A program made the position numbers and the translations under genes. Positions 11,937-13,538 of a stretch of DNA of 41,135 bases are shown in pieces; the stretch's first letter is position 1, and the number at the start of each line of letters is the position of its first letter. This DNA comes from Bacteroidia bacterium (GTDB taxonomy: Bacteria; Bacteroidota; Bacteroidia; Bacteroidales; Prolixibacteraceae), in NCBI GenBank assembly GCA_026391315.1, contig JAPLDT010000085.1:1-41135 (forward strand), given 5' to 3'. The notes beneath the pieces were generated by a model. That model was not told the DNA's origin. It did no database searches and saw only the letters and a program-made list of their open reading frames with translations.

Positions 11937-11990
11937 GTGTAATCAATATCTAAAATTTTCTACTGTTTGAAATTATTTCCATTGAAACAT

Positions 11991-12020
11991 TTTGAAGATT
12001 GAAATATATCTTTATTTTTG
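11991..12020 (+). promoter_or_regulatory. Bacteroides-type promoter of the trp leader/trpB transcript
   Basis: TTTG at 11991-11994 and TATTTTTG at 12013-12020 match the -33 and -7 elements with an 18-nt spacer, the best promoter match in the window. The start would be near 12027, about 16 nt before the leader peptide ATG. Confidence 0.65.
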
Positions 12021-12042
12021 CTGATAGTTTAATATCAAAACA

Positions 12043-12108
12043 ATGATTACACTTACAAATTACAGGGGCTCGAACTGGCTTTGGCACGACTTTATTCAAG
12101 ATGCGTAA
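12043..12108 (+). CDS. Tryptophan leader peptide (21 codons, two Trp)
   Basis: ATG at 12043 opens a 21-codon frame ending TAA at 12106-12108. It starts MITLTNYRGS and then has NWLWHD: Trp codons at positions 12 (12076-12078) and 14 (12082-12084). Two Trp in 21 residues, directly between a good promoter and a terminator upstream of a tryptophan synthase gene, is the signature of a transcription-attenuation leader peptide. Ribosome stalling at these codons would cover RNA segment 1 (12058-12066). There is no Shine-Dalgarno sequence, as usual for this phylum. Function rests on context and RNA pairing, not homology. Confidence 0.8.
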   Translation: MITLTNYRGSNWLWHDFIQDA

Positions 12109-12178
12109 GCGGTATGCCTGTAATTAAACCATAAAAGGGGATATGTCTGTTTACGAGGCATCTCCCCTTTCCTTTTTT
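12058..12178 (+). promoter_or_regulatory. Tryptophan transcription attenuator (leader RNA)
   Basis: Three alternative helices can be drawn. Pause helix 1:2 pairs AATTACAGG (12058-12066) with CCTGTAATT (12117-12125), 9 bp perfect. Antiterminator 2:3 pairs ATGCCT+GTAA (12114-12123) with TTAC-g-AGGCAT (12151-12161), 10 bp with one bulged G. The terminator pairs 12134-12148 with 12156-12170. The antiterminator uses AGGCAT, the inner 3' half of the terminator stem, so 2:3 and the terminator exclude each other. A ribosome stalled at the Trp codons masks segment 1 and frees segment 2 for the antiterminator; one that reaches the stop at 12106 masks segment 2 and allows termination. Confidence 0.8.
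12134..12178 (+). terminator. Attenuator terminator upstream of trpB
   Basis: AAAGGGGA (12134-12141) pairs with TCCCCTTT (12163-12170); beyond a T-C mismatch the stem continues ATGTCT with AGGCAT (12143-12148 with 12156-12161, one G-U). A T6 run at 12173-12178 follows. The run overlaps the TTG that appears to start the next gene. Confidence 0.88.
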
Positions 12179-13538
12179 GCAAAAGAAAATCTATCTCGAC
12201 GAATCGGAAATGCCCAAACAGTGGTACAACCTGGCAGCTGATCTTCCAACGTTACCCCCGCTTGGTCCAGACGGCAAGCCCATCTCCCCCGAAATGCTGG
12301 CACCGGTCTTCCCCATGAACCTGATCGAACAGGAGGTTAGCACCGACCGTTGGATCAATATACCTGAAGAGGTGCAGGATATGCTAAAAATCTGGAGGCC
12401 AAGTCCGTTGATCAGAGCTTTTGAACTGGAAAAAGCCCTCGGAACCCCGGCAAAAATATTTTACAAGAACGAAAGTGTTTCACCTGCCGGAAGCCACAAA
12501 CCAAACACTGCTATTCCACAGGCATGGTACAACAAACAGTTCGGCATCAAACGGATCACCACAGAAACGGGTGCCGGACAATGGGGCAGCGCCCTCTCAT
12601 TTGCCTGTGCGCTGATTGGTGGCATTGAGTGCAAAGTTTTCATGGTAAGGGTGAGCTACGAACAAAAACCATTCCGCCAGATACTGATGAATACCTGGGG
12701 TGGCAAGTGTGTGGCCAGTCCAAGTACAGAAACTGCGGCCGGACGTGCGGTACTCGCACAATTTCCTGACACGCCTGGAAGTCTGGGAATTGCTATTTCA
12801 GAAGCAATTGAAGCGGCAGTAACAGACCCTACCGGGAAGACCAGGTACGGACTGGGTTCCGTTCTCAACCATGTGATGCTGCACCAAACCATCATTGGAT
12901 TGGAAGCGAAGAAACAGCTGGCCAAAGTTGGCATTAAGAAACCGGATATCGTGATCGGTTGCTGTGGTGGTGGAAGTAACTTTGCCGGTCTCGCTTTCCC
13001 TTTCATTCAGGACAAAATCAATGGCGCCGACATTGAAATAATCGGTGCAGAGCCCGCCTCCTGCCCTACACTGACAAAAGGAACCTTCATGTACGACCAC
13101 GGCGATCTTGCCAAAATGACCCCTTTGTTGCCAATGTACAGTTTAGGCCACAATTTTATCCCAGCCCCTATCCATGCGGGCGGACTACGTTACCACGGGA
13201 TGTCGCCACTGGTAAGTGCTGCCGTTAGAGCCGGTTATGTTACACCTATCGCCATTCAACAATCTGAATGTTTTGAGGCAGGTATGCTTTTTGCCAAAAC
13301 AGAAGGAATTGTACCGGCGCCCGAAACAAACCATGCCATTGCTGCAACCATCCGCGAAGCAAAAAAAGCGAAAGAGGAGGGCAAAGAAAAAATCATTCTT
13401 TTCAACCTTTCCGGTCACGGGATGATGGACCTTCAGGGTTACGACAAATACATGCGCGGCCAACTATCTGACTACGAACTATCTGATCGGGAAATCAGCG
13501 AGAACCTGCACCAGATGGACGGGTACCCGAAACCGTAA
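12177..13538 (+). CDS. trpB: Tryptophan synthase beta chain, TrpB2 type
   Basis: PLP enzyme condensing indole with serine to give tryptophan. The 453-residue length and N-terminus ([22 protein letters not shown]) fit the TrpB2 group rather than the shorter TrpB1. The PLP lysine is Lys108 in [23 protein letters not shown] covers the catalytic loop, and [11 protein letters not shown] binds the cofactor phosphate. TrpB2 proteins often act without a tight TrpA partner, and no trpA is present here. No ATG precedes the conserved N-terminus; the only start is TTG 12177, inside the terminator T-run. ATG 12210 would remove conserved residues. Expression should rise when charged tRNA-Trp is scarce. Confidence 0.93.

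Follow-up and report, generated by a model that had tools for sequence, protein, structure and literature searches.

Analysis of the window, that is the whole stretch of 41,135 nucleotides studied here (contig JAPLDT010000085.1 of a Bacteroidia bacterium of the Prolixibacteraceae), revealed a trpB2 gene preceded by a promoter, a short open reading frame and an intrinsic terminator, all on the forward strand. The trpB2 gene (12177 to 13538; 453 codons, open frame) codes for a TrpB-like PLP enzyme and starts with a TTG that overlaps the U-run of the terminator; its product scored 707.1 bits against NF009057 (cut-off 366) and 621.1 bits against TIGR01415 (cut-off 518.85). The putative promoter, TTTG-N18-TATTTTTG (11991 to 12020), was read from the sequence and is of the Bacteroidota type, with TTTG at 11991-11994, an 18-nt spacer and TATTTTTG at 12013-12020; TTTG/TANNTTTG is what we take to be the Bacteroidota promoter consensus. 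TANNTTTG was found at the same place, 30 nt 5' of the leader start, in six of the seven sequences of the genus (window included) and was replaced by TACTTTCG in the seventh. Among 93 leaders of all groups, only 20 had an exact TANNTTTG in the 60 nt upstream, while 79 had TANNTTT there.

The leader open reading frame (12043 to 12108) codes for the 21-residue peptide MITLTNYRGSNWLWHDFIQDA, with an ATG at 12043, a TAA at 12106-12108 and TGG codons for tryptophan at codon 12 (12076-12078) and codon 14 (12082-12084). A leader with both tryptophans was present in seven of the eight genomes of the genus, window included, while in the eighth (L003) the contig ends 61 nt before the gene. The start codon is GTG in two of the genus sequences, and the stop varies between TAA, TAG and TGA. 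When the intergenic region of 310 nt was dinucleotide-shuffled 2000 times, an ATG-initiated frame of 8 to 45 codons carrying Trp-x(0,1)-Trp arose in 30 of the shuffles, a count that leaves the terminator out of consideration. A Pfam search with two of the leader peptides gave no match.

The intrinsic terminator (12134 to 12178) consists of a hairpin at 12134-12170 followed by CC and six T. The fold of 12128-12182 gave a z-score of -4.23, and none of 200 shuffles was equally stable. In the genus, 88.8% of the terminator cells were paired, two loop-side pairs being broken in five and six of the seven sequences. The protector (1:2) helix is formed by strand 1, AATTACAGG (12058-12066), and its partner CCTGTAATT (12117-12125); it comprises 9 bp with 98.4% of cells paired in the seven sequences, and it closes a fold that sequesters strand 2 too. 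Strand 2 (12104-12115) is the 5' side of the antiterminator and overlaps the leader stop codon, while strand 3 (12143-12155), whose assignment is based on conserved pairing and folding, is the 3' side of the antiterminator and also belongs to the 5' arm and loop of the terminator. Promoter, 21-codon leader with its two tryptophans, 9-bp 1:2 helix, terminator and TrpB2 gene had all been described in the first-pass annotation, and each was recovered at the positions given here.

The antiterminator proved to be different from the one first described. The helix formed between 12104-12115 and 12143-12155 had 98.8% of cells paired in the seven genus sequences, window included, whereas the pairing through AGGCAT (12156-12161) proposed in the first-pass annotation had only 80%, with pairs broken in five, six and three of the seven sequences, and was rejected. 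The changes that break the AGGCAT helix are the same ones that break the two loop-side pairs of the terminator.

The helices are conserved with little covariation. Within the genus, the covariation expected of the helices was seen once in the 1:2 helix, as a single compensatory change from U-A to C-G in L120 that 79 of 500 shuffles equalled, and not in the antiterminator, which had no two-sided change in the seven sequences. The duplex energy of the window antiterminator gave a z-score of -2.87 against shuffles. Across groups, 85.4% of the antiterminator cells paired in 28 leaders compared with 42-53% for slid versions, but 83% still paired when strand 3 was redealt among the 23 distinct rows, and 281 of 2000 such redeals reached the observed value. 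These 28 leaders were drawn from 46 leaders of groups other than the Prolixibacteraceae type; L155, L059, L068, L090 and L202 were excluded individually, and the remainder lacked an anchor.

Folding in silico with a masked ribosome indicated how the alternative helices would be selected. Counted from 12076, where the first Trp codon begins, strand 2 of the window starts to pair 28 nt downstream (27 nt when an unpaired flank base is counted). At the point immediately before strand 4 is transcribed, the antiterminator had a probability of 0.95 for a ribosome at either Trp12 or Trp14, 0.16 for RNA free of ribosomes and 0.00 for a ribosome at the stop codon; in the ribosome-free state the protector helix had a probability of 0.76 at this stage. 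Once strand 4 was present, the predicted terminator probability was 0.96-0.97 in every ribosome state. Since equilibrium favours the terminator whatever the position of the ribosome, antitermination would have to be kinetic, by trapping.

We consider it highly probable that the region is a ribosome-mediated transcription attenuator that couples trpB2 expression to charged tRNA-Trp, where the response to tryptophan and the kinetic lead of the antiterminator are what we infer. When tryptophan is short, a ribosome stalled at codon 12 or 14 would cover strand 1, leaving 12104-12115 free to pair with 12143-12155 ahead of the synthesis of the terminator 3' arm; with the antiterminator formed first, trpB2 would be transcribed. 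When tryptophan is plentiful, a ribosome at the stop codon (12106-12108) would cover strand 2 and the terminator would form, and in the absence of translation the protector fold would lead to termination too. Regulation of trpB2 by stalling at Trp codons, as the first-pass annotation had proposed, is well supported, by conserved leaders and terminators, a nearly fixed spacing of Trp codon and antiterminator strand and the predicted state-dependent folding, for the window and for most relatives outside the Prolixibacteraceae-type group, although the AGGCAT pairing given for it was wrong in detail.

The start of trpB2 is peculiar in the window. The two Ts of the TTG are the end of the U-run, while the seven genus relatives have an ATG as start; the gap between terminator and start is 6 nt compared with 37-43 nt in the six relatives where it could be measured, and 31-37 nt of these six are missing at 12171-12179. 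The shortened gap and the position of the TTG mean that terminator and translation start are fused in the window, where an assembly error may also account for the peculiarity. A decaying element, with a constitutive terminator, a leftover leader and a trpB2 start impaired by a deletion of 31-37 nt, would explain why the window alone among the eight genus genomes has a TTG abutting the U-run. Decay of this kind is suggested by the TrpB2 homologue of L100, which has three in-frame stops and retains a terminator with a GTTGCTTACGCAGC loop, and in which the Trp leader was not found. In the window, however, the leader, the antiterminator and the terminator are all preserved intact, as is the open frame of 453 codons, and we regard decay as very improbable.

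Further evidence on the attenuator came from related loci. TrpB2 searches yielded 80 named loci, the best of at least 584 confirmed, together with matches in 105 of the 295 order genomes and 95 of the 140 family genomes. Upstream DNA was read for 198 loci among the closest matches, which gave 151 distinct regions once duplicates had been removed; L180, whose gene start was not found, was dropped too. A leader frame with W-x(0-3)-W was present in 99 of the 151 regions, not counting the four Prolixibacteraceae-type leaders with a single Trp codon described below. Of the 148 regions that offered 300 nt or more of upstream DNA, 94 carried a paired-Trp leader with an ATG start compared with 25 of 740 shuffled regions. 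At the level of the order, 30 loci (window included) were examined, which rank ahead of 75 weaker matches among the 105 trpB2 genomes, and 20 of the 29 besides the window had a leader that starts with ATG and carries W-x(0-2)-W. Against the attenuator reading, the leader was absent from some relatives, including L005, whose TrpB2 is 88% identical, and the group of L006, L122 and L124. In a set of 20 regions from farther away in the phylum, 17 were readable (L291 and L302 had no gene start and L300 only 36 nt upstream); two of them, L296 and L297, had WWW leaders, and weaker W-pairs were seen in L290, L293, L301 and L304. Two of 28 loci titled as other phyla had a paired-Trp frame, L044 without and L068 with a terminator. 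The leader of L068, from a Spirochaetota MAG, carries WQAWGW, and a WSFWWGW leader with a terminator also lies upstream of trpB2 in L059, from an unplaced bacterium.

A terminator, consisting of hairpin and U-run, followed 98 of the 99 paired-Trp leaders, the exception being L044. All 98 hairpins had energies of -11 kcal/mol or below, as had 8 of 294 shuffles, and the real score was matched by none of the 294. Leaders and terminators are too frequent in comparison with shuffles for a chance arrangement. A different RNA switch, such as a T-box or a riboswitch, would account for the presence of a terminator and for nothing more; no Rfam family reached its gathering score in the window, and the best Rfam match in 11960-12260 was the microRNA model MIR535 (E 2). 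Another switch or chance is in our view exceedingly unlikely.

The geometry of the leaders is consistent with an attenuator that senses Trp codons. Strand 2 started at a median of 28 nt downstream of the first Trp codon (quartiles 25.75, 28 and 31; n=98, one flank base included), whereas its position relative to the leader stop codon varied (quartiles -31, -24 and -2.75; n=98). A distance of 28 nt fits a strand that emerges immediately downstream of the stretch covered by a ribosome stalled on the Trp codon. Strand 2 lay 24-36 nt from the Trp codon in 78% of the real leaders and 31% of the shuffled ones (n=93, that is the 98 minus L155 and L190 with a wrong ORF, L059 and L068 as outside or unplaced in Bacteroidota, and L090 for its length). 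Outside the Prolixibacteraceae-type group, masking the ribosome at Trp instead of at the stop raised the pairing of strand 3 by more than 0.1 in 35 of 45 leaders (L155 and L190 left out), where 19.5 were expected from shuffles, and the 2:3 duplex had a mean z-score of -1.45, negative in 37 of 42. L202, a duplicate of Prolixibacteraceae type, is counted among the others in the geometry, duplex and Trp-versus-stop figures. In L029, L191, L200 and L024 the leader frame enters the terminator, its stop codon ending 23-30 nt downstream of the point where the hairpin begins, a position that sits badly with a ribosome simply reaching the stop codon.

The Prolixibacteraceae-type group behaved differently. 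Moving the masked ribosome from the stop to the Trp codons raised the pairing of strand 3 in 48 of 51 leaders, but masking alone already gave 44.1 in shuffles, so that the contrast says little in this group. The 2:3 duplex hardly beat shuffles (mean z-score -0.35, negative in 27 of 51), and pairing of strand 3 was 0.63 without a ribosome and 0.64 with the ribosome at Trp. The idea that in these leaders a Trp-stalled ribosome blocks the antiterminator and that an arrest at KME is needed was set aside, because the main partner of strand 3 lies further downstream, at the usual distance from the Trp codon; this placement is itself weakly supported in the group, and the idea keeps some plausibility.

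Comparison of the leader codons indicated selection on the peptide itself. In the seven sequences of the window genus no amino-acid change was found in the ten codons before Trp12, seven of which had synonymous changes; pN/pS was 0.13 before Trp12, entirely from Ser codon paths, and 0.61 after the Trp pair. In 56 Prolixibacteraceae-type leaders pN/pS was 0.08 for YGKE and 0.13 for RN[VI]KME compared with 0.78 and 0.89 for the flanks. Parsimony on a tree of 30 full trpB2 genes gave 0, 5 and 16 changes at codon positions 1, 2 and 3 of YGKE and 3, 3 and 19 for RNxKME, while the flanks had 21, 15 and 22 and 34, 39 and 37. Some of the sequence of the RN codons also takes part in helix 1:2 (U-A in 30 and C-G in 24 of the 56), whereas YGKE lies upstream of the helix. 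When up to two mismatches were allowed, 63 of the 140 genomes of the family contained the motif pattern, each a single time, and none contained the reversed control; the sites compared by eye lay just upstream of trpB2. A pN/pS of 0.26 before the Trp run was obtained for the WWWW-type group (five sequences, L155 left out), while there was little constraint in the WRWRWW-type group (0.74, seven sequences) and in trpE leader 2 (0.68, 20 sequences). Judged from these substitution patterns, the leader peptide appears to be under selection at the amino-acid level, which is unexpected and unexplained by classical attenuation.

These data bear on the alternative that the peptide itself, and not the Trp codons alone, senses, or that it acts in trans, as a nascent-chain arrest peptide in cis or a micropeptide, the terminator being its output or a bystander. 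The low pN/pS of YGKE and RN[VI]KME, the few changes of YGKE at the first two codon positions and the unchanged ten codons of the window genus are what it would lead one to expect, and the motif is kept with a single Trp codon in four of the 56 Prolixibacteraceae-type leaders (L021, L137, L142 and L167), the group in which the fold evidence for codon stalling is weak. The distance between strand 2 and the Trp codon is, however, nearly constant across groups with unrelated peptides, and together with the little-constrained codons of the WRWRWW-type group and trpE leader 2 this fits codon sensing; we hold the peptide alternative to be improbable. A combination of both is conceivable, in which the trpB2 leader of these Bacteroidales would sense Trp codons and in addition have a function as a peptide, either as a nascent chain that tunes the stall or as a micropeptide in trans, although we put this forward tentatively. 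The residues that would be selected on such a view, possibly, are ITLTNYRGSN-W-L-W in the window genus and YGKE-W-x-W-RN[VI]KME in the Prolixibacteraceae type. The element would still be an attenuator, one in which a member of the Trp pair may have disappeared in some lineages. A precedent for a leader peptide acting in trans is peTrpL of Sinorhizobium meliloti, a Trp leader peptide that likewise shows signs of an independent function (PMC7298713); that role was established by experiment, whereas here the likeness is known from selection on the peptide alone. The conserved trpB2 leader may add another example of a Trp leader peptide that does more than regulate its operon.

Attenuation at paired Trp codons is established for the enteric trpL of the Yanofsky type, which has two nearby Trp codons, 1:2, 2:3 and 3:4 helices and an intrinsic terminator. 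The trpB2 element shares the paired Trp codons, the set of helices and the terminator. Unlike trpL, it precedes one gene instead of a trp operon, its strand 1 of 9 bp is situated 5' of the Trp codons, and the leader peptide is conserved outside the tryptophans. A comparative study of attenuators from 2004 reportedly covers Bacteroidetes. In the literature search, to which subscription journals were mostly closed, no paper on trpB2 leaders in Bacteroidota was recognised. The nearest trpB2 case is Corynebacterium diphtheriae, with candidate attenuators of trpB1EDGC and trpB2A (PMC1262725). It resembles the present genome in having two Trp attenuators, one before a second trpB-type gene, while it belongs to the Actinobacteria and trpB2A is a two-gene unit; the likeness of the two trpB2 genes is one of name.

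The first-pass annotation had considered such an attenuator out of place in Bacteroidota, a view contradicted by RF01692 (Bacteroid-trp), which is the tryptophan peptide leader RNA of Bacteroidetes (Weinberg 2010, PMC2864571). The leader of the trpB1-trpE operon of the same genome, MITRLANTYWWWLAYNSQKS with its terminator (L002:1126-1262), matched RF01692 with 60.1 bits (cut-off 49). The trpB2 element shares with this family the phylum and, by the Rfam name, the Trp peptide leader, but it controls a stand-alone trpB2 and was not matched by the model; the region 11960-12260 gave no match up to E 10 and the gathering score was not reached, and 18 related trpB2 loci (L008, L043 and 16 others) gave no match up to E 1. 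The attenuator is of a known kind, and the trpB2 copy appears, on the model searches, to be a member of an uncatalogued group. A Bacteroid-Trp element lies 5' of the trp operon of Flavobacterium psychrophilum, where there are clues to leader-peptide attenuation of amino-acid operons (PMC6414381, PMC9723704), and short open reading frames in long 5' UTRs of B. thetaiotaomicron have been likened to such leaders (PMC7366714).

The role of TrpB2 is described as unsettled; a second function, such as serine deaminase, has been proposed and the position of TrpB2 apart from other trp genes is taken as a need for separate control (PMC1854888). Candidate Trp-codon attenuators preceded trpB2 in 20 of the 29 loci examined as closest in the order; such control would mean that the cell wants TrpB2 at low tryptophan, which favours a role in tryptophan supply, for example from indole. 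Very probably, a hidden leader with two tryptophans and competing folds would switch on a spare tryptophan-making enzyme at tryptophan shortage. The attenuator makes the question of the role of TrpB2 testable.

Upstream regions of trpB1 from 50 loci revealed leaders of YWWW or LWWW type in six (L213, L214, L216, L217, L219 and L220) and no convincing Trp leader in the other 44. Since trpE lies 3-4 kb upstream of trpB1 on the same strand in the genomes compared by eye, the upstream region of trpE was used instead. In all 20 Prolixibacteraceae-type genomes (L263-L282) two tandem Trp clusters were present upstream of trpE. The first, NTIWLPWWGLL, has DNA almost invariant even at silent sites, lies in an ATG-initiated frame in 18 of the 20 and matched RF01692 below threshold in L264 (35.8 bits, cut-off 49), while the second is WWW(R/H/Q)xNF. 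A His-rich short open reading frame, MTKINFHLGHHHLLP, was found upstream of hisG in the same genome as the window (L287:1353) and is likely to be a His leader. The Trp leader of the genome's own trp operon and this His-rich frame were both counted in favour of reading the trpB2 element as an attenuator.
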